Source: Haloterrigena salina JCM 13891 (GTDB lineage Archaea > Halobacteriota > Halobacteria > Halobacteriales > Natrialbaceae). Taken from it: 64,000 bases of DNA. The DNA lies in contig NZ_AOIS01000031.1 in the NCBI RefSeq assembly GCF_000337495.1, positions 1-64,000 on the forward strand, written 5' to 3'. Shown piece after piece: positions 6,692 through 30,476 of this stretch; position 1 is the first letter of the stretch; every line of letters begins with the position of its first letter. Under the pieces are notes generated by a model. That model was given only the letters and a program-made list of their open reading frames with translations. It did not search any database and had not been told where the DNA came from. The translations under genes were made by a program, and so were the position numbers.

Positions 6692-6713
6692 TAGGTTGGA
6701 CCAGACCCAAGTG

Positions 6714-8770: not shown

Positions 8771-9440
8771 ATGAAGGACGTTCTCCTCGTTACGGTCGAC
8801 TCTCTCCGCGCGGACCACGTCGGATGGCACGGCTACGAGCGGCCGACGACGCCCAATCTCGATCCCCCGCGGCTCGCGGCCACACTTGCACTAACGCCTT
8901 CGCCCACGCCTGCAGCACGCGACCGTCGTTCCCGTCGATTCTCACCTCGTCGTACGCCCTCATGTACGGCGGGTACGAGCGGATCTCCGAGGACCGGACG
9001 CTGATCTCGGAGGCGTTCGACGACGCTGGCTATCGGACGGCCGGCTTCCACTCGAACCTCTATCTCAGCGCCGATTTCGGCTACGACCGCGGCTTCGACG
9101 AGTTCTACGATTCCAAGACCGATCCGTCGGCGACCGCGCGGCTCCGCCAGTTCGTGAAAGACCAGTTGGACTCGGACGGGATCCTCTATCAGACCCTCGC
9201 TCGAGCGTTCGAGACCGCCGAGGAGACTGCTGGGATCAACGTCGGTTCCGCATACGTCAGCGCCGACGAAATCACCGACCGCGCGCTCGAGTGGGCCGAG
9301 TCAGTCGCGACCGACGGTCCGCGGTTCCTGTGGGTCCACTACATGGACGTCCACCACCCGTACGTCCCGCCCGAGCGCCACTAGCGGGCGTTCCGCGACG
9401 AACCGATCGGCGAGCGGCGGGCGATCCAGCTGCTGCGTTT
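8771..9440 (+). pseudogene. Alkaline-phosphatase-superfamily (sulfatase-like) gene, frameshifted, nonsense-mutated and truncated
   Basis: The start [29 protein letters not shown] is a clear sulfatase-family N-terminus. After the CCCCC run at 8864-8868 the family sequence continues in another frame ([25 protein letters not shown]), which one extra base would restore. The frame then meets TAG at 9382-9384 in ERH-stop-RAFRDEPIGERR, where CAG (Gln) would fit, a C-to-T nonsense change. Shortly after, the sequence becomes IS6 transposase. The C-terminal half, including the second metal-binding region and the LGY tail seen in the other sulfatase-like proteins here, is absent. The exact junction with the IS is unclear because both reading frames make sense near 9420-9440. 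Confidence 0.8.
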
Positions 9441-9748
9441 CTGCATGGACTTACCGAGAAACACGATCTCTCCGAGGCTGAGTTTCTCGTCGATAGTGCT
9501 GGCTATCTGACTGCCCTCTCTCGATTAGGATTGAGCGGTCACCTCGACTACGTCGATCGAAACCACATCGAAAAGTGGTTTCAACCCCTCAAAGTGCGGA
9601 TCGACCGCTTCCATAACTCGTGGGTTGGCAGTCGGGCAAGTGTCAGAGATTGGCTTGAACAGTTCGTACACTACTATAACACACAGCGACCACACCTGTC
9701 ACTCAACGGATAGACGCCAGCGGAGGTGCTAAACTAGACGGTGACAGC
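9420..9748 (+). mobile_element. 3' remnant of an IS6-family insertion sequence
   Basis: Bases from about 9420 encode the last third of an IS6-type transposase: AAAFLHGLTEKHDLS, FLVDSAGYLTALSRLG, YVDRNHIEKWFQ (with the DDE glutamate), RIDRFHNSWVGS, QFVHYYNTQRPH. A TAG at 9711-9713 interrupts it where the frame continues as TPAEVLN followed by another TAG; AAG (Lys) is the likely ancestral codon. The N-terminal DNA-binding part, first catalytic Asp and left end are missing, so the copy cannot transpose by itself. It lies exactly at the change from the GC-rich decayed genes to the lower-GC glycan island. Confidence 0.85.
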
Positions 9749-9751
9749 CTA

Positions 9752-11053
9752 TCAGGTCAATCCCTCGTACTCCATGCCGTCGCGGGGCGTGACGGCTCGC
9801 CGGCCGTCGACGACGATTTGCTGGTGCATCGCGTCGAACTCCTCGTCGAGTGCTGCGAACTCGTCCCAGTCAGTACAGACCACACACGCCGTCGACTTAT
9901 GTAACGCGTTGGCCACAGAGGATGCGTAGTCGAGGTTCGGGAAGTATTCGCGCATGTTCTCAGCGGCAACCGGGTCGTAGGCGACGACGTTAGCGCCGCG
10001 CTCGCGGAGCCCCTCGATCATCGAGATAGCGCGCGAGTTCCGTACGTCGTCAGTACCTGGTTTGAACGCGAGACCAAGGACAGCGACGCGTTCGTCAGCA
10101 ACGTCGACGTGGTCGTCAAGTAGTGAGAGCAGTCGCTTCGGCTGGCGATCATTCACCTCGACGGCGGCTTCGAGGACTGCCGGGTCGTACCCTTGTTCGC
10201 TCGTGGCATGGATGATCGCGTGCGTATCTTTTGGGAAGCAACTGCCACCCCATCCCAAGCCGGAGTGTAGGAACTGGCCGCCGATGCGGTCGTCTAGCGC
10301 CATAGCGTCGGCGACTTCGTAGGCGTCGACGCCGAACTCCTTGCAGATGTTCCCGATGTCGTTGATGTGGCTGACTTTCGCCGCGAGGAAGCCGTTGTTC
10401 GCGTACTTGATCATCTCTGCCGTCTTGGTGTTCGTCTCGACGACGGGCGCGCGCGTACGTTCGACCAGCGGGTCGAACACGTCGTGCATGTCTACGAGCG
10501 TGCGGTCGCTGTCCGCGCCGAGCACAACCTTGTCTGGGTTCAGGAAGTCTTGAACGGCCGTCCCCTCCCGGAGGAATTCGGGATTCATTCCAGTACCGAA
10601 CTCTTCTCCGGCAGTTTTGCCGCTCGCGTCTTCGAGTACTGGCGTCACGACATCCTCAGTCGACCCTGGAACAACAGTGCTCTTCACGACGACAGTATGC
10701 CAGTCGTCTTTCCGGGCGAGAGTTTCGCCGAGCTGTTCGGCACCAGCCTCCATAATCGAGAGGTCGATGCTGCCGTCCTCGGACTGCGGGGTGGGGAGGC
10801 ACAGGAACGTCACGTCAGTCTCCAGCACGACGCTATAGTCCGTCGTCGCGCGGAGCCGTCCTGTCCCGCCTTCGCCAGCGTGCTCGGCGACGAGCTCCGG
10901 GAGGCGGTCCTCGTGAATCGGGGACTTCCCAGCGTTGATTGTCTCGACGATGTCTTCGTCAATCTCGACGTTCACGACCTCGTGACCCAAGTCGGCGAAA
11001 CACGTGGCGATGGTGGTTCCGACGTACCCAGAGCCGATGACGGAAATACGCAT
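9752..11053 (-). CDS. UDP-glucose/UDP-sugar 6-dehydrogenase (AglM-type)
   Basis: This is an NAD-dependent four-electron dehydrogenase that converts UDP-glucose, or a related nucleotide sugar, to the uronate. The N-terminal Rossmann motif is GSGYVG; the central part has [21 protein letters not shown] and [14 protein letters not shown]; and the catalytic cysteine lies in [10 protein letters not shown] (about residue 270). The C-terminal UDP-binding domain includes [13 protein letters not shown]. Length (433 residues) is normal. It resembles Haloferax AglM. The start is supported by a TATA-like box about 25 bases upstream. With the nucleotidylyltransferase and the UDP-glucuronate decarboxylase-like gene in this island it would supply UDP-glucuronate and UDP-xylose. 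Its stop lies beside the IS6 remnant. Confidence 0.9.
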
Positions 11054-11072
11054 ACTCGCCGTAGTTGGGTCC

Positions 11073-11082
11073 AGTATAAGAA
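11073..11082 (-). promoter_or_regulatory. TATA-like box for the UDP-sugar dehydrogenase gene
   Basis: TTTCTTATAC on the minus strand is centred about 25 bases before the ATG at 11053, as expected for a leaderless haloarchaeal transcript. Confidence 0.4.
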
Positions 11083-11091
11083 ACGTGCGGG

Positions 11092-12147
11092 CTACCGGTT
11101 CTCGTACCAGTCAACGAACCGTTCGACGCCTTCCTCAAAGTCGACGGTAGGTTCCCAGTCAAGTTCCGCACGAGCACGAGCGATATCCGTAACGTACACC
11201 TTCTGGTCGCCTTCCCGCCACTCGTCGAAAGAGACGTCCGTTCGCTCGCCGGTTTTCTCCTCTAGGAGGTCGATGAATTCCAGCAGGCTCGTCGTGTTGT
11301 CCGGGCCACCACCGACGTTGTACACCGCCGGCTTCCCTTCGGGGTCAGAGAGGAACGCGTCGTAGGCACGAATCAAGTCTTTCACGTAGAGCACGTCCCG
11401 AACCTGCTTGCCATCGCCGAAAATTGTCAACGGCTCGTCGCGGAGCGTGCTGATGGCGAAGTGCGCCACCCAGCCTTGGTCTTCGTTCCCGAACTGACGA
11501 GTTCCGTAGATGCAGCTCATGCGGAACGCCGCCACGTCCACTTCGCCGCGGTCGGCGTAGTCCTGCACGTAGAGGTCTGCAGAGAGCTTCGACACGCCGT
11601 ACGGTGTGTGCTCGCAGTCGTCGATGGACAGTGACTCCGGGATCCCATCCTCGTACTCGGGGTCGTCGTACCAGTACCGCGTCTTCTCTTCGCGAACCGG
11701 AATGTCATTGACGTTGTCACCGTATACTTTATTCGTTGACGCCATCACGACTGCCGGATCACTTTCAGCTTTCCGAGCAGCTTCGAGAACGTTAAACGTT
11801 CCGAGTGCGTTCACCTCAAAATCAGTTCGCGGGTCTTGAATGGAGGCCGTGACGGCAACCTGTCCTGCGGTGTGGACGACGGCATCGTGGCCCTCCACAA
11901 CATCTTCCATCAGCTCCTCGTCGCGGATGTCGCCCTCGACGAGTTCGACGTCCGGGTAGTTCTCGGCGATGTACTCCCAGTTGTAGGCGGCCGTATTCCG
12001 ACTCTCGTCGGCGGTTTCAAGCGTGTCGACGCGGCTGAGGTTGTCGAGTGCCGTGACGTCCGCTCCTTGCTCAGCATAGTACTCTACGGCGTGACTGCCG
12101 ACGAAGCCAGCACCCCCGGTGACGAGGACGCTGTTTAGTTGGGTCAT
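11092..12147 (-). CDS. NAD-dependent nucleotide-sugar epimerase (CDP-paratose 2-epimerase-like)
   Basis: An extended short-chain dehydrogenase: NAD-binding TGGAGFVGS near the N-terminus and catalytic YGVSK with the preceding Ser/Thr in ASTNKVYGD. The STNKVYGD block and the later [19 protein letters not shown] are typical of CDP-paratose/CDP-tyvelose 2-epimerases rather than UDP-glucose 4-epimerases. The exact sugar substrate is not fixed by sequence. I chose the ATG at 12147 ([12 protein letters not shown]), which leaves a normal short N-terminus; an in-frame ATG at 12174 would add nine residues. It lies 38 bases upstream of the dehydrogenase on the same strand and presumably acts in the same glycan pathway. 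Confidence 0.75.
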
Positions 12148-12258
12148 ATCTCGGAGAAATAGGTCAGCATTCATAGTCGTTCCTCATCGGCGTGGCTACT
12201 CAGCCACTTACGATTTGAGTCGTATACTGGGTACTGTCGATAGCGATACATCTCGTGA

Positions 12259-13695
12259 TCAGGACAGTACGTCAGAATATACCGAGCGCAATACGGCCCT
12301 GAGGTTCGAACTAATTGTCACGAGTGTAAGGCCGTAGACAATAGCGCCAGTTCCAATGATCACCAGCAGATCAGTAGAACTCCGAATTGGGAGTCGCGCG
12401 TTCGCAAGTTCGACAACTGCGAACATCACGAGGCCCGCCAAGAACTGCTCAAATAGCGTCCTCGGAAATACGTTGACACCCAATTCGTATTGTTTGACGA
12501 CAGCGATGTAAAGGACGTATCGGAGGAACTCAGCGACGATTGTCGCGATGACAACGCCGAGCGACCCGTATGTAAAGACGAGCGCTATACCGAGGATGAC
12601 GTTCACCGCGAGAGTGGCCATGCTGATTCGAAGGTTCACGTCTGGTAGGTCGATTGCATTCACCGCCCGACCGTACATCGTCGTCTGAGTGTTCAGAATC
12701 TGGTAGAACGCGAGGCCGACGAGTAGTGTTGCGGCCGCACGATACTCACCGCCGTATACGGTGACAACGATACCCTCTGATATTGAGAGCGCACCGAAAA
12801 AGATGGGGATCGCTAACGCACTACTGAACGCGATAGCGTTCGAGATATCCGCCGAAACATCTTCCCCCTTCGAGTGAATCTTCGACACCTTCGGCAACAG
12901 TGCCGGTGCGATGGCCATACTGAGAAGCGTCGCTGGCATAGTCAGTTTATACGCGGTTTCGTATTGGCCCGCCGCACCGGTCGTGATGAAAAACGCGATG
13001 AGAAGGATGTCTAGCCGGGAAAACGCTGTTCCCATCATGGCATTTGGGATACTGTATCTCGCATACCGCCAGACCGATCGTGCAGTTTCTTTCGTTGGGA
13101 ACTTCGGTCGAAGCGGTAACACATATTGGACAACTGGCACCGTGAGTATCGTTGCGGCCGCCAGCCCGTACCCCATCCCTGCGGCGCCCAGTCCGTAGAG
13201 AACGAACGCCAACTGGAGTACTATCGTCAGAACGGACCGCAACGTGTCGGTCCAGATTTGTAGGGCTGGATGTCCGTGTCCAGAGAGATGGTGCTGGGTG
13301 ACCAAAAATAGGTTTATGGAGACAAACAGGGCGAAGAAGACCAGGGGTGCGTTCGCCACGTTCGTCTCCGCCGTTAGCAAGTCACCGAAGGCGAATACGA
13401 GGACCGCTGCACAAGTAAAGACGACGAGTTGAACGAGTAGGACTCCACCGAGTATTTCTCCGCTCGCCGACTCGGCCTCGGAGACACGCTTTTCGAGTGC
13501 GACTGAGAGTCCTCTGAGGGGGTTGTCGAATACATTCACCAGCGATAGGAGAAAGTAAAATCCGCCGAAGGAGGTCGGGCCGAGTATTCGAGCGAACAGA
13601 ACGGTTCCGATGAATCCGAGGATGAACTGCGTAGACTTGCCGAGAAACCCCTTCAGTGATTCGAGACCCAAGCTGATGGTGTCGTCGTCGCTCAT
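12259..13695 (-). CDS. Polysaccharide/lipid-linked oligosaccharide flippase (Wzx/AglR-like)
   Basis: A 478-residue polytopic protein of the MOP exporter fold with about 12-14 hydrophobic helices, starting with a Wzx-like first helix (KGFLGKSTQFILGFIGTVLF, ARILGP) and the motif RYSIPNAMMG. Such proteins move lipid-linked sugars across the cytoplasmic membrane. Haloferax AglR belongs here and is thought to act on dolichol-phosphate mannose. Its ATG overlaps the stop of the upstream sulfatase-like gene by four bases (13692-13695), so the two are translationally coupled. It is the only Wzx-type flippase in the window. Confidence 0.85.
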   Translation of the reverse strand: MSDDDTISLGLESLKGFLGKSTQFILGFIGTVLFARILGPTSFGGFYFLLSLVNVFDNPLRGLSVALEKRVSEAESASGEILGGVLLVQLVVFTCAAVLVFAFGDLLTAETNVANAPLVFFALFVSINLFLVTQHHLSGHGHPALQIWTDTLRSVLTIVLQLAFVLYGLGAAGMGYGLAAATILTVPVVQYVLPLRPKFPTKETARSVWRYARYSIPNAMMGTAFSRLDILLIAFFITTGAAGQYETAYKLTMPATLLSMAIAPALLPKVSKIHSKGEDVSADISNAIAFSSALAIPIFFGALSISEGIVVTVYGGEYRAAATLLVGLAFYQILNTQTTMYGRAVNAIDLPDVNLRISMATLAVNVILGIALVFTYGSLGVVIATIVAEFLRYVLYIAVVKQYELGVNVFPRTLFEQFLAGLVMFAVVELANARLPIRSSTDLLVIIGTGAIVYGLTLVTISSNLRAVLRSVYSDVLS

Positions 13696-15134
13696 CGATA
13701 CCCGAGGTTCTCGAGTCGACGTTCTGTTGCCTCGGTGATAGTGTCTTGGTCAGCCTCGATACGGATTCCAGCGTCTTCAAATCCGTCGAAAACAGATTGA
13801 ATTCGTTCTACCCCTACACCCCGATCGGTAAAGTTCGTCGCCGCATCAATAGAACGTACCGACAGCGTTCTATCATTCCATCTGGCTTGCTTGTAGACGA
13901 AGTCATCGCCACTCTCGTAGAGGACATCAGATTCACCGACTAATGGATCGATATCGATGCCTGCCTGACTGAGTTGGCCCTGCTGGGGCGCTAACATCCC
14001 CTGTGTGCGGGCCACGACAGGTGGTTCTGTGAACGCTCCTAGGTCCCGCTCGCCTTCCACTGCCCGGCGAACAGCACGTGGAATCGCCGTGAGCGTCGCG
14101 GGGGCATCCACCACGCCCCCTTCGTCCTGTTCTGGGTGACTGACGACTAGCGGCACGTGGAGATTTTCCTCCGTCTCACCCACGTTGTGGCCAGCGATAC
14201 GAACGTTTCGCAGTCTGCTTCGCTCCCCGAATCCCTCGCCATGGTCGCTCGTTACTATGAGGAGAGTATTCTCGAAATCACCACGTTCCCTGAGCGCCTT
14301 CACGAGGCGCTGTACTTCCCGGTCCAGTTGTCTAATAGTACCATCATAGAGATATTCGAGCAGTTCGCACTTCCACCACTCGTCGCTCCCGTCGTAGAAC
14401 CCGAGTGGCATCGAATCGATGGACTGCTGGATAGCAGTGATGGCCCCGTCGTTCCACTTGTCGAACTCGGCGTTCGGGAGATATGGATGGTGGGCGTCCA
14501 TGAAGTTGATACACCCCGCCCAGGGTTCGTCGGTGCCCTCGACCCAATCCAAGAACAGGTCAGTGAACGTCGATCCGGGAACCGTTCCGGAGCCAAGTCG
14601 GCGTTCGAGCCTGTCCGGGAGCAGGTCTGGATAGTCCCAGGCGAGTTTCGCGACCATACCGTTCGCGAGGGAACGGGCTGGTCGCCCAGAGCCGAGGGCC
14701 GCTTGGAGGAATCCCCCAACGTCCCCCTTGAACTCGTCTGGGTTGGCACCCTCGAACAGTGGTTCGCGACTCGCCCCCGCCACGGTGTCAAACCCGGAGT
14801 CTAGACCGGTTTCGAGCGACGTCAAGTAGGGGTTCTCAGAGAACAGACCAGTCTCGTAGCCCGCTTCGTTCAGTTCATCGAAGATGGTCTCCCCAGAACG
14901 GATTCCCGCATCGGCAGCAGTCACGCCGTGTTCGGGAACGTGATAGCCCGTGAACATACTTGTGTGACTTGGAAGACTCCACTGTGAGGGCGCACGTGCC
15001 TGCGTGTATTGGGTAGCGGCGTCTGCGGCGAGAGAAGACAAGAAAGGGGTCGTCTCGTGGCGGGCATCATGCAGGGAAGTGTTCTTGGCGCGCACGGAGT
15101 CCAAGATGACGAGAAGAACGTTCGGAGAGCTCAT
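13692..15134 (-). CDS. Sulfatase-like protein of the alkaline phosphatase superfamily (copy 1)
   Basis: The metal-binding start is PNVLLVILDSVRAKN, followed by WSLPSHTSMFTG where sulfatases carry C/S-x-P-x-R; here serine precedes LPSH and the arginine is His. Further metal ligands are MDAHHPY and VTSDHGEGFGE. The block ENPYLTSLETGLDSGFD and the final RRLENLGYR recur in the other sulfatase-like proteins of this window. The activity could be sulfate ester hydrolysis or transfer of a phospho group to a glycan; sequence alone does not decide. I chose the ATG at 15134 (MSSPNVLLVIL) because the family signature begins directly after it; an in-frame ATG at 15221 adds 29 atypical residues. Confidence 0.75.
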   Translation of the reverse strand: MSSPNVLLVILDSVRAKNTSLHDARHETTPFLSSLAADAATQYTQARAPSQWSLPSHTSMFTGYHVPEHGVTAADAGIRSGETIFDELNEAGYETGLFSENPYLTSLETGLDSGFDTVAGASREPLFEGANPDEFKGDVGGFLQAALGSGRPARSLANGMVAKLAWDYPDLLPDRLERRLGSGTVPGSTFTDLFLDWVEGTDEPWAGCINFMDAHHPYLPNAEFDKWNDGAITAIQQSIDSMPLGFYDGSDEWWKCELLEYLYDGTIRQLDREVQRLVKALRERGDFENTLLIVTSDHGEGFGERSRLRNVRIAGHNVGETEENLHVPLVVSHPEQDEGGVVDAPATLTAIPRAVRRAVEGERDLGAFTEPPVVARTQGMLAPQQGQLSQAGIDIDPLVGESDVLYESGDDFVYKQARWNDRTLSVRSIDAATNFTDRGVGVERIQSVFDGFEDAGIRIEADQDTITEATERRLENLGYR

Positions 15135-15268
15135 GCTCGCCCCAAGGAATTGGCGGAATACAGTCTTTTTGTCTTCGAGTGACACAGAATCTTCTGTTTC
15201 GATTTCCCGAAACGCGTTCAAGCATCCACTTCACAAACTCTCTATCCCGGATCACATCTCTAATGTGC

Positions 15269-16414
15269 TTATTTTTGCTCGAACGTGGGATCGCTACCGC
15301 TCCACGGTACGTTGATAGCCGTTCGGTTCCGTGCTTCCTTGACGATGCTCTGGAACTGTCTCTGGTAACGGTCGACGTCGAAGTTTTGTGCGAACTCCCG
15401 AAGTTCCGACTCAGTCCACTTGACGCCGTTGCCCTCGAAGGACTCGACCGCTGAGCGTAAATTTTCGACACCACGGTCGAACTGCACGCCGTTTACGCCA
15501 TCAATAATTTGATACTGAGTGAATCCGTCATTCACTCCGATAACTGGCGTCCCACTCGCGAGGGACTCGATGGGGGTCATCCCGAAGTCTTCGTTTATTG
15601 CGTTGGCAATCATCGCTTTGGCCTCGGCCATGTACGCGGCTTTCTCCTCCCCAGAGATGTAGCCGACGAACTCGACGTTATCGCCGGCCATAGACTCCAG
15701 TCGGGACCGTTCCGGTCCGTCTCCGGCCACGACGAGTCTCTGGTCGAGTTCGTTGAACGCCTCCACGACCGGACCAATTTGCTTCAGTTTCGACAGTCGC
15801 GAAATCGAGAGGTAAAACGGTTCCTCGTCGTTCAGTGGTCCTGCTTTTTCCGGGCCGAATTGGCCAGTATCGACCGGCTCGTAGATGACAGTCACGTCGT
15901 CCTCGGAGACCCCCCAGTACTTGCGAAGTCGATGCTTCACGAGGTCGGAGTTCGCGACCATTGCGTCCGGTGTGACGGTATTCGTTTCGAAGAACGTTCG
16001 CCACCCGGATTTGAGGAGTTTTCGCGGCGTTCGCGGGGATTCGTAGTGGAACAGGTCGTATCTGCCGCTGGCGGGTGAATGAACGTTCCAGACAACCGTC
16101 TGTCGATCCTCCGGGATGAAATACCTTGGTTCGAGTTTGTTTAGGATGAGGGTGTCGAACTCGTATAGTTCCGACGGGTCCTGCCACTGCAATACGCGAT
16201 ACAGTTTATTGTAGAAGTGCCCACCAGACAGTAGCCGCCTCCTGAATCCGTCGGGGCCAATTTTCCGAACATCGACATCATCGGGGACCTTCGCCTGGTC
16301 GACTTCCATCGCGAAGAGTGGACAGTCGAACGTTCGCGCCAATATAAACGCGGCCTCTGCCGCACCGCCAATCGTCGACAATTGGTCGTGTACGACAGCG
16401 ATTTCCTCGTCCAT
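15269..16414 (-). CDS. Family 4 glycosyltransferase
   Basis: A GT-B fold enzyme that starts with EIAVVHDQLSTIGGAAEAAF and has the C-terminal nucleotide-sugar site: SISRLSKLKQ, VVAGDGPERSRLE, VEFVGYISGEEKAAYMAEA and the E-x7-E block NEDFGMTPIES. It probably adds a sugar to a lipid-linked glycan at the inner membrane face. It shares the EDFGM.P.E and TQYQ-like blocks with two other GT4 genes in the island (18003-19163 and 24441-25466), so the three are paralogues. It is divergent from the next sulfatase-like gene, with about 100 bases between the chosen starts. Confidence 0.85.
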   Translation of the reverse strand: MDEEIAVVHDQLSTIGGAAEAAFILARTFDCPLFAMEVDQAKVPDDVDVRKIGPDGFRRRLLSGGHFYNKLYRVLQWQDPSELYEFDTLILNKLEPRYFIPEDRQTVVWNVHSPASGRYDLFHYESPRTPRKLLKSGWRTFFETNTVTPDAMVANSDLVKHRLRKYWGVSEDDVTVIYEPVDTGQFGPEKAGPLNDEEPFYLSISRLSKLKQIGPVVEAFNELDQRLVVAGDGPERSRLESMAGDNVEFVGYISGEEKAAYMAEAKAMIANAINEDFGMTPIESLASGTPVIGVNDGFTQYQIIDGVNGVQFDRGVENLRSAVESFEGNGVKWTESELREFAQNFDVDRYQRQFQSIVKEARNRTAINVPWSGSDPTFEQK

Positions 16415-16484
16415 GTCGGACCCAACACAGACGTACGACTAATCAATTATGACTGGACCTTCGGTGCCGGCTTCGGAGAGAAAA

Positions 16485-16491
16485 CACTTTA
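16485..16491 (+). promoter_or_regulatory. TATA-like box deciding the start of sulfatase-like copy 2
   Basis: ACACTTTA lies about 27 bases upstream of a GTG at 16515. An upstream ATG at 16449 would put the box inside the coding region, so a leaderless start at 16515 is favoured. Confidence 0.45.
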
Positions 16492-16514
16492 TCCGAACTG
16501 GTCCTAGCAAACCC

Positions 16515-17972: not shown

Positions 17973-18002
17973 TACGGATATCTCAACCGTCACGGACGGC
18001 GG

Positions 18003-19163: not shown

Positions 19164-19248
19164 TGACTGGGTCGCTTGCGATTTCACCACGATTTCGGAA
19201 GTGTCTTTGCATTTTGGAGGACTCAGAACACAGAAGCCGGGTCTTGGG

Positions 19249-20223: not shown

Positions 20224-20354
20224 TTCCCTTGCGTTAGCGACAACGACGTTTCAATCTCTCGCCTCGTTTCCCGCCCCAGAACGTCGAGTCACTAACACTA
20301 CTACCTGCTGATTGGTCGAAACCTTCAACTTCGGTCATCGCCACCGGACACATC

Positions 20355-21107: not shown

Positions 21108-21138
21108 ACTCAGTTCGTCAACCAGCCTAACCACTTAC

Positions 21139-22050: not shown

Positions 22051-23402
22051 TCGATGTACCCGAGTTCGCGGAGTCGCTCCTCGGTCGCTTCGTCGAGATC
22101 TTCGTCACCGGAGGAAACCTCAGAGAGGTCCGCATTGAGCTGTTCGACGAGTGCCTCCTCGAGTTCGACTGGGTGGTCTCCCCACCGATTGTCCCGTTCC
22201 ATTGGGTCTTCAGGCCGGTAGTAGGCTTCCCAGCTTTCCTCGTCGAATCGCTTGGCGCCCCAGTCTCCTTCGGGGTGATAGAGGACCTTCCACTCCGCCC
22301 CGACTGCTGCGGCCATGCGTTTGCCGTCTTCCATCACGTTCTGGACGGTCACGTAGTCACGGTCCGAGCGTTCGTCGCCCAGCAGTGACGGTCGATCGCC
22401 GAGGCGCTCCGCGGAACCCGCCAGGTCGAGAATCGTGCTGCCGAGGTCCAGCAGCGACGTCGGTCCCTCAATGCGTCCCGACTCGCCTACATTGTCCATC
22501 ACGAGAGGGACCCTGGTGACGGTGTCGTACATGAGTGGCCGGTGGCCGTAGTTCGCGTGTTCGCCGAACTCGTCTCCGTGGTCACTGTGGACGATGAGAG
22601 GAGCGTCACCGTGGCCTGCCTCCTCGAGGCGCTCGGTGAGTTCGCCGACGAACGTGTCCGCGTACCGAATCGTGTTGTCATAGGCGTTGACGATGCCGTT
22701 TCGTCTCTCACCGACGAGATTCCGATGGCGGCGCATCGCGTAGTTCCAGGCGTACGTCGAGCGGATACCCGGTTGGTCCCACTTATGGTGTTCCTCGGGG
22801 ACGTAGTAGGGGTGATGTGTGTCGATGAGCAGCACCCAGAGGAAAAACGGCTCCGGGGCTTCCTCGATGAACGACTCGATGTCTGCCCACATGTCCTCCC
22901 AGGTTGGTGGCGTTTTCCCTTCGGCTGTCCGTTTGAGATCCACCACGAAGTTCCCCATCCCGGCCTGCTGGAGGGCGTCGTGGGCGCGTTTCTTCCATCC
23001 TGATTCGGTGCTATCGTCGGCATCCCACATGTGATCCTCGTAGACATCCCAGCCCCGATTCCAGCCGAAGGACGAACTCACTAGGGCGTTGTAATGGAAC
23101 CCGCCCGTGTGGTAGCCCTCATCCTGGAGAACTTCCGGAAGGAACGTCCGGTCCGCGTTCGCTTCTCGCCAGTGCTGCGGGTTCGGATACTCCATGCTTC
23201 CCGAAGCGTGTTCGCCCGAGAACATGCCAGTGAAACTGGCCGGTGTTCCGACAGCTGGGACCTGCGGGTCGTTGAACACGAGGCCATCTTCCGCTAACGC
23301 TTCAAGGTTCGGCGTTGTATTGCGGTCGTATCCGTACAGCGGCAAGTGATCGGCCCGGACGCTATCCCACGAAACGAGGACGATATTATCTTTGTCTATC
23401 AT
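22047..23402 (-). CDS. Sulfatase-like protein of the alkaline phosphatase superfamily (copy 4)
   Basis: The first metal site is IVLVSWDSVRADHLPLYGYDR. The nucleophile loop is AVGTPASFTGMFSGEH, where Thr-Pro replaces the C/S-x-P-x-R signature. Other ligands are LIDTHHPYY and HSDHGDEFGE. The block FHYNALVSSSFGWNRGWD corresponds to the ENPYLT...GFD block of copies 1 and 2, and the protein ends ERLRELGYIE. I chose the ATG at 23402 (MIDKDNIVLVSW); a longer frame to 23495 overlaps the stop of the upstream glycosyltransferase. It is 10 bases downstream of that gene and overlaps the next by ATGA. Confidence 0.75.
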   Translation of the reverse strand: MIDKDNIVLVSWDSVRADHLPLYGYDRNTTPNLEALAEDGLVFNDPQVPAVGTPASFTGMFSGEHASGSMEYPNPQHWREANADRTFLPEVLQDEGYHTGGFHYNALVSSSFGWNRGWDVYEDHMWDADDSTESGWKKRAHDALQQAGMGNFVVDLKRTAEGKTPPTWEDMWADIESFIEEAPEPFFLWVLLIDTHHPYYVPEEHHKWDQPGIRSTYAWNYAMRRHRNLVGERRNGIVNAYDNTIRYADTFVGELTERLEEAGHGDAPLIVHSDHGDEFGEHANYGHRPLMYDTVTRVPLVMDNVGESGRIEGPTSLLDLGSTILDLAGSAERLGDRPSLLGDERSDRDYVTVQNVMEDGKRMAAAVGAEWKVLYHPEGDWGAKRFDEESWEAYYRPEDPMERDNRWGDHPVELEEALVEQLNADLSEVSSGDEDLDEATEERLRELGYIE

Positions 23403-23412
23403 TTGTTGGCGG

Positions 23413-24441
23413 TCAGACGTACCCGATGTCTGCCAGTAGGTTTCCGTACTCATAGGCGAATGCTTTGAGGCCGGACGCTTCGTTGAAGCCAGCACCGTAC
23501 CCCGACGCCAGCGTGCTGAATTGCTCTCGTTTATTCTCGGAGAGCGAGAAATACCAGTCTATCGCTACGGCGATGGCAGTCGGGTCTGCATCCGCGACGA
23601 ATCGACCGTGAACGCCACGAACCAACGTTGCAGTCCCGACACCCGGCGTCGTCACGACGGGCAGGCCGGCACAGAGCGCCTCTAACGTCGCGACCGGGAA
23701 TGCCCCGGCAGGCGCTGGAAAGACCATCAATGCGGCCGATTCGAAGAGGTCGACTAGCTTTGCTTCACTTACGAAGCCGTGTGTGTTCACGGCCTCTGGC
23801 CCTTCGATTTGCTCCGTGTCCGGGCCGACGAAATCGACCGTGCAGTCCAACCCTACGTTCGATAGCGCATCGACGAGGACATCTTGGCCGTTCTTTCGCC
23901 GATACTTTCCAAGACACAAAATGCGAGTTCCGTCCAGTGAAGGGTCAAGCGACCTGAGTTCCTCGTACCGGTTTGCCTCGACAAACGGGTGGGTCACTCG
24001 TGTCGGCTCGTTGGTCAACTCTGCGGCAATCGTCGCGATGCGTTCGCTGACAGCGAGCGTCCCGTCAACGAATCGCTGGGCGAAACGGTGGGCCAACCGA
24101 CTCGTCGCCGTACGGCCCGTCATCGGATTGCGGATGTCGTGGTAGGTCGAATCGGCGCCGAGCGCTATTACCGGCCCAGACGACCCCAGAAGTTTCAACG
24201 CGGCCCCTTCGACAAGCGGCACCCCGCCCTCAAGGATTACCGGCCGATTCCCAAAGTCGTGGCTTCGACCGGCCCGAATACGAGCGAACGCACCATCCGT
24301 CTCGCACTGCACCATCTCGGCGTCGAGGTACGACGCCATCTTCTCGTGGACCGGATGCGGGTCGTAGTAGAGAAACACCGGCGGGGGGATGTCCGGACCT
24401 GCAGTGACCATCTCAACACCCGAATGCTGGCGTGACGGCAT
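23413..24441 (-). CDS. Family 4 glycosyltransferase
   Basis: A 342-residue GT-B enzyme. The N-terminal half has FLYYDPHPVHEKMASYL and the C-terminal half LCLGKYRRKNGQDVL, NTHGFVSEAKLVDLFESA, FPAPAGAFPVATLEAL and TTPGVGTATLVRG. The catalytic block AFPVATLEALCAGLPVVT replaces the ED-FG-x-PIE pattern of the neighbouring GT4 paralogues, so its donor may differ. It ends LADIGYV, echoing the LGY ends of the adjacent sulfatase-like proteins. The ATG overlaps the previous stop by one base (TAATG), which supports this start. Confidence 0.8.
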   Translation of the reverse strand: MPSRQHSGVEMVTAGPDIPPPVFLYYDPHPVHEKMASYLDAEMVQCETDGAFARIRAGRSHDFGNRPVILEGGVPLVEGAALKLLGSSGPVIALGADSTYHDIRNPMTGRTATSRLAHRFAQRFVDGTLAVSERIATIAAELTNEPTRVTHPFVEANRYEELRSLDPSLDGTRILCLGKYRRKNGQDVLVDALSNVGLDCTVDFVGPDTEQIEGPEAVNTHGFVSEAKLVDLFESAALMVFPAPAGAFPVATLEALCAGLPVVTTPGVGTATLVRGVHGRFVADADPTAIAVAIDWYFSLSENKREQFSTLASGYGAGFNEASGLKAFAYEYGNLLADIGYV

Positions 24442-25466
24442 TAAAAGTACTCCGCTTCGACGAACCCCTCGACTTGCTCCCTGAACCTGTCGGTGCTATA
24501 CGCCGTCGCACGTTCGCGGATGGCGGCGTGGTCCCATGTCGTCTGTTCGACGCGCCGGACGCCCTCGGTAACTGCGTCAGGTGTCGGGTTGACCAGGACA
24601 CCGGTCTGCTCGTCCACCTGGTTTTTCGTGTTGGGTTCGTCCACCCCGACGACCGGCGTTCCCGCCGCCATATACTCGATGGGGGTGATTCCAAAGTCCT
24701 CGCGTTCGGCGAGGAACAGTCCGGCGACGCTCTGTTCGACCGTCCGCCTGAGTGTCTCGTCGTCGACGTAGCCCTTGAACTCGACGTTGTCTGGCGCATT
24801 CCGCTCCAGCATACCTCGGAGCGGCCCGTCTCCGAGCACCTTCAGAGTGTACTCCGGCAACTGGCGCATCGCATCGACGGCGACTCCTGGTCGCTTCCGC
24901 TCCTCCAGTCGACCCACCAACACCAGTTGCTTGGATCTGCGGTTTCGCGTCGCGTCGAAGGACTCGACGTCGACAGGAGGACAGATAACCTTGTCCACCG
25001 ACTCCCCGTAGTGTCGCTCCGCTCGGGTCGCCGTAAGTTTGCTGTTCGCGATCACAGCAGGTATCGTGAGCGTCTCGAGTCGGTCGAGGGACTTCACGAG
25101 GTACGACAGCAAGCCGCCCTCGAACCACAGCGCCGCTAGCGGAGGGTGATGCAGGTAGTGAACCCGGAGTTGATCGTCGTAGGGCTGGACGAACTTTGCG
25201 GCCGGGCCACTCGTGAACAGTACGTCGTAGTCGTGTAACTCGAGGTTGAGCATGGAATGAGCGGTCCGAATGTCGTTCAATCTGCCGCTCCGTGACGTCC
25301 GGCGGAGAATCGACACGTCGTTTGGCACACGCTGCTGCCACCATTCTCGTTCTTTCCCGGAGAACCCGACGTAGAGGTCGGCATCCAGTGCCCTTGCGGC
25401 CTCGGTGACGACTCGCACCGCACCGCCCGGATTAATGGTGCCATCGTGGACGACAGCGACTCGCAT
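24441..25466 (-). CDS. Family 4 glycosyltransferase
   Basis: A GT-B enzyme beginning RVAVVHDGTINPGGAVRVV, with HYLHHPPLAALWF, VIANSKLTATRAERHYG, CPPVDVESFD, LVGRLEERKRPGVAV, KVLGDGPLRGMLE and the E-x7-E block REDFGITPIEY. The shared DEPNTKNQV-type block links it to the two other GT4 paralogues of the island. I chose the ATG at 25466; one at 25475 adds three residues. A TATA-like GCGTTTAGC lies near 25495-25503, about 30 bases upstream. It heads the four-gene coupled operon ending at 21139. Confidence 0.83.
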   Translation of the reverse strand: MRVAVVHDGTINPGGAVRVVTEAARALDADLYVGFSGKEREWWQQRVPNDVSILRRTSRSGRLNDIRTAHSMLNLELHDYDVLFTSGPAAKFVQPYDDQLRVHYLHHPPLAALWFEGGLLSYLVKSLDRLETLTIPAVIANSKLTATRAERHYGESVDKVICPPVDVESFDATRNRRSKQLVLVGRLEERKRPGVAVDAMRQLPEYTLKVLGDGPLRGMLERNAPDNVEFKGYVDDETLRRTVEQSVAGLFLAEREDFGITPIEYMAAGTPVVGVDEPNTKNQVDEQTGVLVNPTPDAVTEGVRRVEQTTWDHAAIRERATAYSTDRFREQVEGFVEAEYF

Positions 25467-25531
25467 CTGGCCCACTGTTCACGGGCCCCCGTGCTAAACG
25501 CATCGGTCACCGTGGCGGTCTGACGGAGTTC

Positions 25532-26485
25532 CTAGACTCGCTTCCTGAACTCTTCGAGAGTGCGGCGAAGCCCCTCTTCGAGCGTGACCTTCGGCTCCCA
25601 CTCAAGGAGTTCCTTCGCCTTTGTGATGTCTGGACGGCGCTGGGATGGATCGTCCTGAGGTAGTGACTCGTAGGTCAGTGCGGCGTCAGTTTCGACGACG
25701 TTGAGGACGCGGGCTGCCAGCGCTCGAATCTCGATTTCGTCCGTACTCCCGAGGTTGATGGCTTCGCCAGCAACTCGGTCGGGAGGCGCGTCCGCGACGG
25801 CAAGAATTCCACGCACCAGGTCCGAGACGTAACAGAAACTACGAGTCTGGGTTCCGTCGCCGTACACCGTCAGATCCTCATCAGTGAGGGCCTGCGTGAG
25901 GAAGTTCGGGATGACGCGCCCGTCGTCAGTGCGCATCCGTGGCCCGTACGTGTTGAATATCCTTACAGTCCGCACGTCGATTCCGTACTGTTGTTCGTAG
26001 GCGACGGCGAGCGCCTCGGAGAATCGCTTGCCTTCGTCGTAAGGTGCGCGTGGCCCGCGGATGTTGACGTTCCCATTGTACTGTTCGTGCTGGGGATGGA
26101 CGTCTGGGTCACCGTAAATTTCACTGGTCGAGGCGAGAATCGCCTTCGCTTCGTGCTCCCGAGCCGCGTCAAGGATGTTTCGCGTCCCCTCGCTGTTCGT
26201 CAGAGCGATTTCGACGGCGTGGGAGGCAAAGTCCTCGGGACTCGCGCGCGAGGCGAAGTGGTAGAGTTCGTCGACGTCGGTAAACGCTGGAAGCGGGTCA
26301 CAGATGTCGTGTTCCCGGACCTCGAGGTGGTCGCTCTCAACTGATGCGAGGTTCTCCGGTCGGCCGCTCCCGAAGTTGTCGAGGACCGTCACGCGCCGAT
26401 TCGCATCTAGAAGGGATTCGGTGAGATGGCTCCCGACGAAACCGCCACCCCCGGTGACTACCGCGTGTGGTCTGTCCTTACTCAT
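25532..26485 (-). CDS. UDP-glucuronate decarboxylase-like NAD-dependent dehydratase (UDP-xylose synthase type)
   Basis: An extended SDR with TGGGGFVGSHL for NAD and catalytic YDEGK. The block STSEIYGDPDVHPQ, then NGNVNIRGPR and YDEGKRFSE, and RIFNTYGPRM..DDGRVIPNF are the pattern of UDP-xylose synthases, which decarboxylate UDP-glucuronate. A dTDP-glucose 4,6-dehydratase is the main alternative, but that family has a different block before the catalytic Tyr. Its ATG overlaps the stop of the nucleotidylyltransferase by four bases (26482-26485), so the two are coupled. With the UDP-sugar dehydrogenase at 9752-11053 it predicts xylose in the glycan. Confidence 0.8.
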   Translation of the reverse strand: MSKDRPHAVVTGGGGFVGSHLTESLLDANRRVTVLDNFGSGRPENLASVESDHLEVREHDICDPLPAFTDVDELYHFASRASPEDFASHAVEIALTNSEGTRNILDAAREHEAKAILASTSEIYGDPDVHPQHEQYNGNVNIRGPRAPYDEGKRFSEALAVAYEQQYGIDVRTVRIFNTYGPRMRTDDGRVIPNFLTQALTDEDLTVYGDGTQTRSFCYVSDLVRGILAVADAPPDRVAGEAINLGSTDEIEIRALAARVLNVVETDAALTYESLPQDDPSQRRPDITKAKELLEWEPKVTLEEGLRRTLEEFRKRV

Positions 26486-27492
26486 AGTTGAATCGAACTG
26501 TTGGCCCCAATGTCGAGATGATCCGGTTTGCCTCGTACTGTCGTGTTGTCCCCAACGATGCTGACTTCGAGATTCACGCCGAGTAGTTCCGCGTTCCGCC
26601 CGACGATACTGTCTCGGACGAGGCTATTCTCGACCTGCACACCGTCGTCGATGCTTACGTTCGGGCCGACCACGCTGTTCACGATTTCCACGCCCGCGCC
26701 AAAGTCGACAGGTGGAACGACGACAGATTCCTCAAGACCGTTTGACTGGTTCGTCTCGAGGCGGTTGAGGAGTACTCGATTCGCGTCCAGTAGCGTCTCG
26801 GGGCGGCCGCAGTCGTACCAGTTCTCGACGGTGAACGTCGTCAGGTCACAGTCCTGTTCAACCATCCGCTGGAAGGCGTCGGTGAGTTGATACTCGGCGT
26901 CAGCACCCCGGATATCCTCTTCGACGAGCATCTGCAGGGCGTCGAACAGCATCCCGGTGGCTTCAACGATGTAAATGCCACTGATTGCGAGATCCGAGAT
27001 CGGTTCAGACGGCTTCTCGACGAGTTGTTCGATGGTGCCGCGGTCGTTCGTCCCAACGACGCCATAGTGCTCGGGGTTCTCGACTCGCTTGACGCCGATG
27101 CTCCCATCCGTCGGCCGACAGTCGTCGTGGGCATCAAGGAACTGCTTGTAGCCGTTCTCGAACAGCATGTCCCCGAGCGCGATTAACACCGGTTCGCCTC
27201 GGACGGCGGATTCAGCCTGGTAGATACTGTGTCCTAAGCCCTCTGCCCGTTCTTGTTCGACGAAGGTGAATTCGAAGGCGTCGCCGAACAATTCGGTGGC
27301 GTACTCGGTGATTTGGTCCTGCATCGACCCACCGACGACGATGACCACTTCCTCGATGGGGGTCTCGGCAAGCGAGGAGAGGATGTGGCCGAGAATCGGC
27401 TTCCCCGCCAACCGAACCATGGCCTTCGGTTTCGTGTGCGTGTGCGGGTAGAGGCGTGTCCCCTGTCCCGCCGCGGGAATGAGCGCCTTCAT
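26482..27492 (-). CDS. Sugar-1-phosphate nucleotidylyltransferase with left-handed beta-helix tail (AglF-like)
   Basis: It makes a nucleotide sugar, probably UDP-glucose, from NTP and sugar-1-phosphate. The N-terminal signature is IPAAGQGTRLYPHTHTKPK, followed by ALGDMLFENG at the metal site and VEKPSEP. After about residue 245 the sequence becomes hexapeptide repeats (VVGPNVSIDDGVQVENSLV, DSIVGRNAELLGVNLE), giving a beta-helix tail for oligomerisation. At 336 residues the length is usual for archaeal GlmU/RmlA-like enzymes. A TATA-like AGTATTTAATG lies about 30 bases upstream. It is the intact counterpart of the disrupted nucleotidylyltransferase at 29727-30476. Confidence 0.85.
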   Translation of the reverse strand: MKALIPAAGQGTRLYPHTHTKPKAMVRLAGKPILGHILSSLAETPIEEVVIVVGGSMQDQITEYATELFGDAFEFTFVEQERAEGLGHSIYQAESAVRGEPVLIALGDMLFENGYKQFLDAHDDCRPTDGSIGVKRVENPEHYGVVGTNDRGTIEQLVEKPSEPISDLAISGIYIVEATGMLFDALQMLVEEDIRGADAEYQLTDAFQRMVEQDCDLTTFTVENWYDCGRPETLLDANRVLLNRLETNQSNGLEESVVVPPVDFGAGVEIVNSVVGPNVSIDDGVQVENSLVRDSIVGRNAELLGVNLEVSIVGDNTTVRGKPDHLDIGANSSIQL

Positions 27493-27516
27493 GCTCGCAT
27501 CCTCGGATACCGTTCA

Positions 27517-27528
27517 TTAAATACTCCC
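27517..27528 (-). promoter_or_regulatory. TATA-like box for the nucleotidylyltransferase-decarboxylase operon
   Basis: On the minus strand AGTATTTAATGA is centred about 30 bases before the ATG at 27492. It would drive the coupled genes at 27492 and 26485. Confidence 0.45.
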
Positions 27529-27577
27529 GGTTCCCTGCTATCCGATCCCTCGTCACACCGCGAGACTATCCCGCCTT

Positions 27578-28720
27578 TCATTCGAAGGCCTCCCGCAACT
27601 CAGCGTCCACGTCCCACGTCCCATCCGAATCCCCAACCAACAACTCCACACTCGCCCGCAGCAGCGACACCTGCGTGTCGAAAATCGAGTACAGCGCCTG
27701 CACCGGACCGAGCGCGTCTTTCTGTCCGAGGTACGCGAACGCGGTGACCGCAGCAGGCAACACCAGCCCACCTGTTCCGAACAGCGAGAGTGCTGCACCA
27801 GTCCCGACGACGAGCGTCGCCGCCAGCAGCCACGGGGAGATAATCATGAACCACCAGTTGAACGGGAGCACGACCTTGCCGTACTTCCCGTACTTCCCGA
27901 GCGCGTCACGGTGGTGAACCAACAACCGAATCAGCCCCATCCCACGCCTATCTTTCTGCTTGCGGCGCTTCACGAAGTCCGAGAAGCTGGCTTCCATGTA
28001 CTGCACGGCAGGGTCGAAAATCACGCGGCCACCTTGCCGACGAATCTTCAACGCGAGCTCCGTGTCGTCGGCCAGCGAGTTCGGGTCGATTGGCAGCAGC
28101 GCGTCGTTCTCGAATGCGGAGAACGGCCCGTGGAAGATGAGCGTCGAGTCGAGGTGCGACTCCAACTGCTGGATGTGCGACTGCACGCCGCGATATCCGG
28201 ACTCCACTTCACTGCCACCCAAGACTTCTACGTTCCGCCCAGTCACGGCCGCGATGTCGTCGTCTGCGAGATTGGCGGCGGCTTCCCGAAGGACATCGGG
28301 CGCGAGTTTGGAATCGCAGTCGGTCTTCACGACCATCTCGTTCGACGCGGCGGCGTACGCGTCGTTGAGCGCCGGCGCGAGGCCGCGGCGTTCGTCTTCC
28401 TCGAGCAACACCAACTCAGGGGCCTCGAGATCTGCGAAGTACTCCCGAATGATGTCGCGGGTTTCGTCGGTCGACGAGTCGACGACGACGAGCTCGATCT
28501 TCTCCATCGGATAGTCGAGTGCGAGTAAATCGTCGAGTTTCGTCTCGACGATCTGTGCTTCGTTGTACGTCGGGAGTACGATACTGACCGTCGGCTCCGC
28601 GGGCGTTTTCTCGGCGGGCGATCCCTGTGGCCGAATCCACGCGTAGAGTGTGAGATAGCAGAGGTAGGGAAGCGCCGTCACTGTGAGAAGAGAAACGGCA
28701 GCAATTGCAAGCAGGTTCAT
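27578..28720 (-). CDS. Membrane-anchored family 2 glycosyltransferase
   Basis: An N-terminal membrane helix (about residues 5-27) precedes a GT-A domain: VSIVLPTYNEAQIVETKLDDL, VVVDSSTDETRD, the metal-binding motif KTDCDSKL and the acceptor block PNSLADDTELALKIRRQG. R-R-x-Q-x-D-R (KRRKQKDRRG) follows, as in processive or hyaluronan-synthase-like GT2 enzymes. Two or three hydrophobic helices (about 285-345) close the protein. Similar haloarchaeal proteins add the first or later sugars to dolichyl phosphate. It lies at the telomeric-like outer end of the island beside non-coding sequence and then non-glycan genes. Confidence 0.82.
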   Translation of the reverse strand: MNLLAIAAVSLLTVTALPYLCYLTLYAWIRPQGSPAEKTPAEPTVSIVLPTYNEAQIVETKLDDLLALDYPMEKIELVVVDSSTDETRDIIREYFADLEAPELVLLEEDERRGLAPALNDAYAAASNEMVVKTDCDSKLAPDVLREAAANLADDDIAAVTGRNVEVLGGSEVESGYRGVQSHIQQLESHLDSTLIFHGPFSAFENDALLPIDPNSLADDTELALKIRRQGGRVIFDPAVQYMEASFSDFVKRRKQKDRRGMGLIRLLVHHRDALGKYGKYGKVVLPFNWWFMIISPWLLAATLVVGTGAALSLFGTGGLVLPAAVTAFAYLGQKDALGPVQALYSIFDTQVSLLRASVELLVGDSDGTWDVDAELREAFE

Positions 28721-28989
28721 GGAGTTGCCGTTGACAGCGACGGATCAAAACTCCTTCGCTGTCGATATGGACGGGTTAATCCGTTATTATCCAGTCGATC
28801 TAGAAGTCCGACGGGGAGTAGTTGAGACGCCTGTCCGATTCCCGTTGAACTACTCGTTCCGTTCACCTCGGATACCGGCCCTGAGAGGCGTTCGTCAGGT
28901 GGGTGGTAATGCACAGAGCAGATAAGAGGGTCAGAGTCCCGCTATCATTAGTAGAGTCGATTTTTGTGGTGGCGAATGCCCCCCTCTAA

Positions 28990-29163
28990 CTACTCCATAT
29001 CCCAAATTTGCATCATCGGCGTCCTACATTGATCACAGACGACAGCGTCATTTCCCTTGTACTGCCCCCGTACGAGCGATCCCTCATCACAGAACGTACA
29101 GGAACGGTGCTCGAGTCGAGTAAGGAGGTCGGATCCCGAAAGTGACTGTCTAATCGTACTCAT
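28990..29163 (-). CDS. Small zinc-finger protein (HVO_A0556-type)
   Basis: A 57-residue protein with two CxxC pairs: SCTFCDEGSLVRG and VVCDQCRTPMMQIW. The spacing and the G-x-Y-K-G-N-D-A-V-V block match small haloarchaeal zinc fingers of the HVO_A0556 type. The ATG at 29163 (MSTIRQSLSG) and a TAG stop at 28990 define it. The function of this family is not known to me; such micro-proteins are often regulatory. It stands alone between the glycan island and the small gene at 29297. Confidence 0.8.
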   Translation of the reverse strand: MSTIRQSLSGSDLLTRLEHRSCTFCDEGSLVRGQYKGNDAVVCDQCRTPMMQIWDME

Positions 29164-29296
29164 TTAGAGAGGAATTCATCATATGCATCAAGTACTTTTT
29201 GGCTATGTGATCTTTACAGACTCGAGAAACCGGGCTGTGGATCACGCCAAACTGTCATTCCAAATTCGTCGCAGATAGGCTCCCTCGAGAGTTACT

Positions 29297-29551
29297 TCAT
29301 GACTCGAGTCGCTCCGTCGCCCATTTGGACAGTCGCGTCCACCCCGAGTCGCGCTCCGTGCGTTCGATGTAGCGCTCGAGGGTCAGCTCCGAATTCCGAC
29401 GCCACTCGGTCGGGATCGCACCGGCGAGACCGTAGTCGTACTGCGTCTCGGGTTCCCGAAAGACGGTGTCGGTCGTTTCGTCGTAGTAGTCGAGATAGCC
29501 GTCTGCACGAATACCGATAAGTCGGAGTTCGGAGTCGTCGGTCGCGGTCAT
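29297..29551 (-). CDS. Small haloarchaeal protein of unknown function
   Basis: An 84-residue acidic protein. LIGIRADGYLDYYDETTDTVF looks like a beta hairpin, followed by TEWRRNSELTLERYIERTERDSGW and a short amphipathic end. I do not recognise the family. The composition (acidic, GC-rich wobble) supports a real gene. No cysteines, signal peptide or membrane helix are visible. It is divergent from the broken nucleotidylyltransferase at 29727. Confidence 0.55.
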   Translation of the reverse strand: MTATDDSELRLIGIRADGYLDYYDETTDTVFREPETQYDYGLAGAIPTEWRRNSELTLERYIERTERDSGWTRLSKWATERLES

Positions 29552-29726
29552 TTCGGACCACCGTTCCGTCGATTCTGTTCGAGGGATTCCATGAGCGTTG
29601 CCTCCTCACGAGTGTAGTCTGCCAAAGGTTTTCCAGAAGGATGGGTCCGAAAACAGTGTCTCTCCGAAGCTCCGTTCGCTCGATTACTCGAAGAAATATC
29701 CCCGCAGATGAGGAGTTCCTGATCGT

Positions 29727-30476
29727 ATGCAAGCAGTCGTGCTGGCTGTGGGCAAGGGCGATCGCCTCCGGCCGCTGACCGACGACAAGCCGAAGGCGCT
29801 CGTCGAGGTCGACGGGACGCCGCACATCGAGGACGTCTTCGACAACCTCCTCGAGCTCGGCGTCACGAAATTAGTCGTCGTCGTCGGCTACCAGAAGGAA
29901 CAGATCATCGAACGCTACGGCGACGAGTACGAGGGCATTCCCATCACCTACGCCCACCAGCGCGAGCAACTCGGCCTCGCACACGCCATCCTGCAGGCCG
30001 AGCCTCACGTCGACGACGATTTCGTCCTTATGCTCGGCGACAACGTCTTCCGCGCCAATCTCGCGGACTTCGTTAATCGCTAGCGGGAGGACCGCGCCGA
30101 CGCCGCCTTTCTCGTCGAGGAGGTCCCCTACGAGGAGGCTTCCCGCTACGGCGTCCTCGACACCTACGAGTACGGCGAGATCGTCGAGGTCGTCGAGAAG
30201 CCCGACGATCCGCCGTCCAATATCGTCATGACCGGCTTCTACACGTTCACGCCGGCGATCTTCCACGCCTGTCACCTCGTCCAGCCCAGCGACCGCGGTG
30301 AGTACGAACTCCCCGACGCGATCGACCTGCTCATCCAATCGGGTCGAACCATCGACGCAATCCGCATGGACGGCTGGCGGGTCGACGTCGGCTATCCCGA
30401 GGACCGGGAGAAAGTCGAAGAACGATTACAGGAGCAAACCGACGCCGAGAGCGAGGCATTGACGACTGTCGAGTGA
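29727..30476 (+). pseudogene. Sugar-1-phosphate nucleotidylyltransferase (AglF-like) broken by a nonsense codon
   Basis: The N-terminal part starts MQAVVLAVGKGDRLRPLTDDKPK, with AHAILQAEP and LMLGDNVFRANL. At 30081-30083 a TAG interrupts LADFVNR-stop-REDRADAAFLVEE; CAG (Gln) would fit, a C-to-T change. The remainder (YGVLDTYEYGEIVEVVEKP, MTGFYTFTPAIF, DGWRVDVGYPEDREKV) stays in the same frame to 30476, giving a former length of about 249 residues. The nucleotide-binding signature also deviates, reading GKGDR where GxGTR is usual. Its GC-rich character matches the decayed genes at 6.8-9.4 kb, suggesting they belonged to one older glycosylation locus. Confidence 0.85.

Follow-up and report, generated by a model that had tools for sequence, protein, structure and literature searches.

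A lower-GC cassette appears to have displaced an AglG/AglF-type set in the aglB–carS N-glycosylation island of Haloterrigena salina

The interval between aglB and a carS-like gene in Haloterrigena salina JCM 13891 raises the question of how an intact block of glycosylation genes came to lie between the broken remains of another. The S-layer N-glycan of haloarchaea influences stability, mating, and virus recognition. The stretch analyzed here, hereafter the window, comprises the first 64,000 nucleotides of contig NZ_AOIS01000031.1 (C31:1-64000) of a 4.84-Mb draft genome (G000; 71 contigs, 99.3% complete, 2.8% estimated contamination), and was compared with five congeners (G001–G005) and more distant relatives. 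These comparisons suggest that the aglB–carS region is an N-glycosylation island in which a lower-GC cassette displaced an AglG/AglF-type set, with the glycosyltransferase GT2a probably taking the place of AglG; we assign this reading a probability of roughly 0.7. The earlier set survives only in its two ends, both pseudogenes, and the cassette between them is open.

The conserved left border of the island is aglB (3689–6691, minus strand; Pfam STT3, AglB_L1, and AglB_core-like), which encodes the oligosaccharyltransferase and is the sole STT3 gene of the genome; the top matches of its product, in Natronorubrum and Natrinema, suggest membership of the Natrialbaceae. The conserved right border is a carS-like gene for CDP-archaeol synthase (30740–31285, minus strand), named by sequence inspection and 91–93% identical at the amino acid level in all five congeners. 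Between them lies a ~19-kb cassette of 16 genes, all open and 14 of them on the minus strand, in which sugar-nucleotide, glycosyltransferase, and flippase genes form one block; both this block and the aglB border fit an aglB-anchored N-glycosylation cluster. GC content drops from 0.64–0.70 to 0.53–0.61 across ~9.4–30 kb. GC at third codon positions (GC3) is 0.59–0.79 (mean 0.69) in the 16 cassette genes versus 0.84–0.93 (mean 0.89) in 23 flanking genes (Mann–Whitney p 1.6e-7), and the two groups score 0.42 and 0.73, respectively, for codon adaptation to the usage of the flanks; the broken genes flanking the cassette have a GC3 of 0.78–0.88 (mean 0.84). An earlier annotation of this stretch (the original prediction) had described a complete, lower-GC, mostly one-strand cassette between damaged edges, and GC, GC3, codon adaptation, open frames, and strand all bear this description out.

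It had also described three damaged genes at the left edge, and all three are indeed broken; what damages the first, aglG, is a loss of bases that keeps the frame, and neither a stop nor a frameshift. This gene, of the glucosyl-dolichyl-phosphate glucuronosyltransferase type (6848–7750, plus strand; NF041394, 471 bits vs. a cut-off of 440), lacks 36 bp in frame at 7114/7115 relative to its counterpart in G029, a genome of another genus. The frame stays open, and DVVAFIDDDAVA is lost: exactly 12 residues, bearing the DDD motif kept in 30/30 orthologues examined. With the family score reached and the catalytic motif gone, aglG is classed as a pseudogene. The second gene encodes a GT4 glycosyltransferase (7747–8749, plus strand) and carries a 4-bp insertion near 8205, as judged by alignment to G029, with Pfam Glyco_trans_4_4 and Glyco_trans_1_4 matches in two frames. 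The third is the 5′ part of a sulfatase-superfamily gene (8772–9431, plus strand), which has lost 1 bp near 8864, contains a TAG at 9382–9384, and is truncated at the 3′ remnant of an IS6-family transposase element (9422–9745, plus strand; right end CTAGACGGTGAC at 9734–9745). Over its full length, the left block is 79% identical in DNA to intact genes beside aglB in G029. Mismatches to G029 at first, second, and third codon positions amount to 0.08–0.14, 0.04–0.13, and 0.31–0.41 across the left pseudogenes (~0.10, 0.09, and 0.39 in aglG). This bias toward third positions implies that nearly all of the divergence arose under selection, and therefore that decay is recent.

The IS6 remnant is present where GC drops, as the original prediction held; the junction itself does not fit a plain insertion. 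The sulfatase reading enters the interior of the transposase, and the presumed parent sequences share a 10-bp microhomology, CGATCCAGCT, at 9422–9431. Because the sulfatase gene ends inside the transposase, the element was not simply inserted into it. The right end of the element (9745) lies 3 bp past the apparent native stop of the first cassette gene, aglM, so that IS6 would already have adjoined the cassette when a deletion fused it to the sulfatase gene. The remnant is 93% identical to two other copies in the genome (G000:C54:23337, C19:21578). An IS26-style composite transposon was considered and rejected: there is a single truncated copy at the left, none was seen at the right, and there are no flanking repeats. 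A role for IS6 in the missing final residue of AglM was likewise rejected; a comparison of C-termini shows the protein to be one codon short, with a TGA replacing the last Trp of its orthologues, and the sequence fits a change of that Trp codon to TGA before the native TAG.

At the right edge, the nucleotidylyltransferase gene reported as stopped at 30081 is aglF, for UTP-glucose-1-phosphate uridylyltransferase (29727–30476, plus strand). As a whole it matches NF041313 at 420 bits (206 and 197 bits by halves), with one TAG, at 30081, interrupting the frame; in addition, its GxGTRL signature reads GKGDRL where GKGTRL is expected. In genome scans, no other gene passed the AglF family cut-off. 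The genome has five further PF00483 genes: two archaeal GlmU types, two without a family match over the cut-off, and one cassette gene. This last encodes a RmlA_long/GlmU-like sugar-1-phosphate nucleotidylyltransferase of 336 aa (26482–27492, minus strand; 62–65% amino acid identity to G020 and G073), which the original prediction took for a duplicate of the broken gene. It is not an AglF: it is longer, shares 34–36% identity with AglF proteins, and scores 149 bits on NF041313 against a cut-off of 400. Our guess is that it might supply UDP-glucose to AglM without AglF, an idea helped slightly by G020, which also has no AglF over the cut-off and carries the 62% relative of this enzyme.

What, then, would stand in for AglG? 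GT2a (27578–28720, minus strand) is predicted to be a PcManGT-like membrane glycosyltransferase of family GT2, with a GT-A domain, an invariant D134-x-D136, and N- and C-terminal hydrophobic helices. Its family profile matches PcManGT (6yv7) over 6–325 (2e-46, 162 bits; ~30% identity). A Foldseek search with an AlphaFold model of GT2a returned the PcManGT structure first and also matched hyaluronan and cellulose synthases; because the model is of moderate confidence (pLDDT, the predicted local distance difference test, 67), it is the profile match that carries the fold assignment. PcManGT is Pcal_0481, a membrane GT2 of Pyrobaculum calidifontis proposed as a homologue of AglC, its mannosyltransferase activity not confirmed, and in M. 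voltae AglC transfers the second sugar of the N-glycan (PMC8993221). The sugar following the first hexose is attached by AglG and, in Halobacterium, by Agl25 (PMC4335974, PMC8674786). Given these shared positions in the pathway, GT2a is best interpreted as a probable substitute for AglG at the step after the first sugar. A second conserved GT2a-like gene (G000:C30:107877-109025; L221), with equivalents in G001–G005, is 63–65% identical at the amino acid level, lies ~30 kb from aglB in the congeners, and forms a separate clade.

The distribution of the two glycosyltransferases was counted in 292 genomes of the order, each at least 90% complete, using a GT2a threshold of 590 bits (~70% identity), below which scores blend into those of paralogues. 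GT2a was found in 49 and AglG in 201 of the 292, and both in none (Fisher 1e-30, a value that overstates independence, as related genomes were counted singly); the genome carrying the window is the only one to hold both, its AglG being without the active-site motif. Lowering the GT2a cut-off to 560 bits yields two genomes with both. In an earlier set of 60 relatives, the GT2a genomes were likewise without AglG. By contrast, AglF coexists with GT2a in several genomes (e.g., G002, G011, G051, G064, and G072). GT2a lies directly beside aglB, the usual seat of AglG, in G020, G142, G260, and G287. Ten genera contain both GT2a-type and AglG-type genomes, and the swap has therefore occurred repeatedly. 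Laterally exchanged and variable agl clusters are already known (PMC5867893, PMC6011602); no published report of AglG/GT2a exclusion was found in the open-licence literature.

Comparison with the congeners identifies the aglB–carS interval as a replacement hotspot. Its flanks are shared with all five at 86–95% DNA identity (window positions 1–6750 on the left and from ~30740 on the right), and its filling, 12.9–21.4 kb in the congeners, is different in each of the six genomes. The genus-type AglG and AglF both occur in G003, G004, and G005; in the latter two AglG lies beside aglB and AglF beside carS, and an intact AglF adjoins carS in G025 as well. The left wreckage and the 15 cassette genes other than GT2a are found in none of the congeners, and other families hold close relatives of several cassette genes, including GT2a (85–91% amino acid identity in G073, G116, and G120) and the epimerase Epi1 (88% in G073, 87% in G054). 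Shared flanks, differing fillings, and foreign kin agree with the central claim of the original prediction, that one glycosylation set was replaced by a laterally acquired cassette and left remains at both edges. Its assumption that the old set was the original one of the lineage fails on the gene trees: AglB of the window is sister to that of G003 (99/99), with G001 and G002 as sisters, and the broken AglG pairs with the AglG of G029 (100/91), far from the genus clade that G003–G005 form. The GT2a tree conflicts with both, grouping the window with G023, G073, G001, and G002 (100/99). With its AglG nearest to another genus, the displaced set seems itself to have come from outside the genus, which would require no fewer than two exchanges.

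The history that these data suggest would begin with an AglG/AglF-type set that was itself an earlier import. An IS6 copy would have landed just beyond aglM, and a deletion running from this element into the old sulfatase gene would have taken out the middle of the old island. No longer needed, aglG and aglF would then have decayed recently. GT2a would replace AglG where the dolichol-phosphate-linked first sugar is committed to one core, and the core of the glycan transferred by AglB would change with it.

Several observations weigh against this account. No integrase, tRNA, or flanking repeat was found as an insertion mark at the cassette. A donor of the whole cassette was not found among 80 relatives, which gave only single-gene matches; the cassette may therefore be a mosaic acquired stepwise. 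The AglF tree left the position of the pseudogene unsettled. Finally, the right edge may predate the left one, because a GT2a gene with an AglF stump is common to G001, G002, and G023, a genome of another genus. In G001 and G002, GT2a is accompanied by the small zinc-ribbon gene, and AglF is reduced to a 3′ stump; the break between zinc-ribbon gene and stump falls at one and the same base in the two genomes. Relatives sharing both cassette and damage had been named in advance as a finding that would count against a recent replacement, and such sharing is confined to this right edge. A similar AglF 3′ stump plus GT2a was seen in G023 (the loci compared, L141, L142, and L152, covering the interval from GT2a to carS or the adjacent gene).

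GT2a with an AglF stump in both G001 and G002, sisters in the AglB tree, together with a broken AglG that is not of the genus type, would also suit a reversed order, in which the GT2a cassette, or its framework, was resident first and the AglG–GT4–sulfatase block plus AglF represent a later partial import or failed invasion. We regard this order as unlikely. The wreckage is near the host in GC3 (0.84) and the cassette is not; in G004 and G005, AglG adjoins aglB and AglF adjoins carS; G003, the sister species, carries both of these genes and lacks GT2a; and the remainder of the cassette occurs in no congener.

It is similarly doubtful that the cassette builds another surface polymer, an exopolysaccharide or another glycoconjugate, and merely adjoins aglB. 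A flippase and several sulfatase-superfamily enzymes would fit a polysaccharide locus too, as would the matches of GT2a to hyaluronan and cellulose synthases in the fold search; however, the closest fold is that of PcManGT, AglM belongs to an N-glycosylation equivalog, the aglB–carS position carries N-glycosylation sets in the congeners, and GT2a, besides its mutual exclusion with AglG, is the immediate neighbour of aglB in the four genomes noted above. An assembly or mixed-strain artefact joining two island haplotypes, conceivable in a draft assembly (71 contigs, contamination estimated at 2.8%), is very improbable, as the IS6 remnant is 7% diverged from the other copies and thus not a collapsed repeat, the pseudogenes carry several kinds of lesion, each independent of the others, and similar right-edge architecture appears in other assemblies (G001, G002).

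The cassette as a whole encodes AglM, two epimerases, the nucleotidylyltransferase, four GT4 and two GT2 glycosyltransferases, a flippase, a methyltransferase, and four sulfatase-superfamily proteins, one of them without a Pfam match. From the left, aglM, for UDP-glucose 6-dehydrogenase (9752–11053, minus strand), matches NF041297 over its full length (1–429 of 429; 770 bits vs. a cut-off of 670). It is followed on the minus strand by Epi1, an NAD-dependent sugar epimerase/dehydratase (11092–12174; Pfam Epimerase), and a Wzx/MOP-type glycan flippase with a putative AglR-like role (12259–13695; Pfam Polysacc_synt_3, ~10 hydrophobic segments). The remaining glycosyltransferases, also on the minus strand, are GT4 a (15269–16414; Pfam Glycos_transf_1), GT4 b (18003–19355; the real start probably 3′ of the first start codon), GT2 b (21139–22050; Pfam Glycos_transf_2), GT4 c (23413–24441), and GT4 d (24441–25475; 59% amino acid identity to G066). 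An FkbM-type methyltransferase (20355–21107, plus strand; Pfam Methyltransf_21) and a second sugar epimerase/dehydratase, Epi2 (25532–26485, minus strand; 67–68% amino acid identity to G072, G073, and G020), complete this group.

Three alkaline-phosphatase-superfamily enzymes match Pfam Sulfatase (13692–15221, minus strand; 16449–17972, plus strand; 22047–23495, minus strand). As true formylglycine sulfatases they were rejected: C/S-x-P-x-R is absent, with S/T and P-S-H or P-A-S-F in its stead (S-L-P-S-H for C-x-P-x-R in the first), and their assignment is to the predicted superfamily only. The fourth, a sulfatase-like protein without a Pfam match (19249–20223, minus strand), carries the motifs DACRAD, HYMQPHAPF, and TSDHGNAFGE and belongs to a family common in such islands. 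Because the three with Pfam matches lack the formylglycine motif, we propose that the sulfatase-superfamily proteins may decorate the glycan in the manner of phospho- or sulfo-transferases.

Between GT2a and aglF lie the zinc-ribbon protein gene (28990–29163, minus strand), common to G001, G002, and G023, and an 84-aa open frame (29297–29551, minus strand), 94% identical at the amino acid level to a G029 frame that also lies beside an AglF copy. That G029 locus (L149, G029:C3:1698000-1706000, 1235–2797) holds an intact AglF, then the 94% relative, then the start of a second, truncated AglF. Elsewhere in the window, a second low-GC patch (0.50–0.57) at 58000–60000 holds small frames, of which two on the minus strand (58822–59226 and 58471–58722) look related; apparent LSm-type and ribosomal L37e-type genes lie beside it. 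The 64-kb window contains no Rfam match and no tRNA, and tRNA-linked integration was rejected on the latter ground.

The island resembles the agl clusters of Haloferax volcanii and Halobacterium salinarum in its aglB border, its AglM, AglF, and AglG families, and its glycosyltransferases, flippase, and methyltransferase, and lateral variation of those clusters is known (PMC5867893, PMC4335974, PMC8674786). It differs in that AglF and AglG are pseudogenes here, with a GT2a-type set including four sulfatase-superfamily enzymes instead. In the variable islands of Halorubrum lacusprofundi (PMC6011602, and Haloquadratum walsbyi as cited there), aglB-linked genes also differ between close strains, a variation tied there to virus pressure; whereas in those accounts it is alleles or gene content that vary, here both edges of the displaced set persist, with a junction resolved to the base. 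GT2a, in turn, matches PcManGT over its full-length sequence and in fold, but is ~30% identical to it and is found in haloarchaea in AglG's place.

Variation among agl clusters was thus known, but not a rule for what replaces what. That AglG and GT2a exclude each other across 292 genomes hints at a definite choice between one glycan core and another, and the uncharacterised GT2a family (49/292 genomes) is a likely alternative to AglG. Extending this to haloarchaea at large, we would put at even odds the broader proposal that they have two mutually exclusive N-glycan cores, one determined by AglG and the other by the PcManGT/AglC-like GT2a, a non-orthologous replacement that would act at the committing step in AglG's stead; the two types would be swapped as blocks at aglB. 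This genome would then have been caught after the switch, its AglG set still recognisable. Holding one type whole beside the recent remains of the other in a single genome, the locus would give both an order of loss and a testable pair of enzymes.

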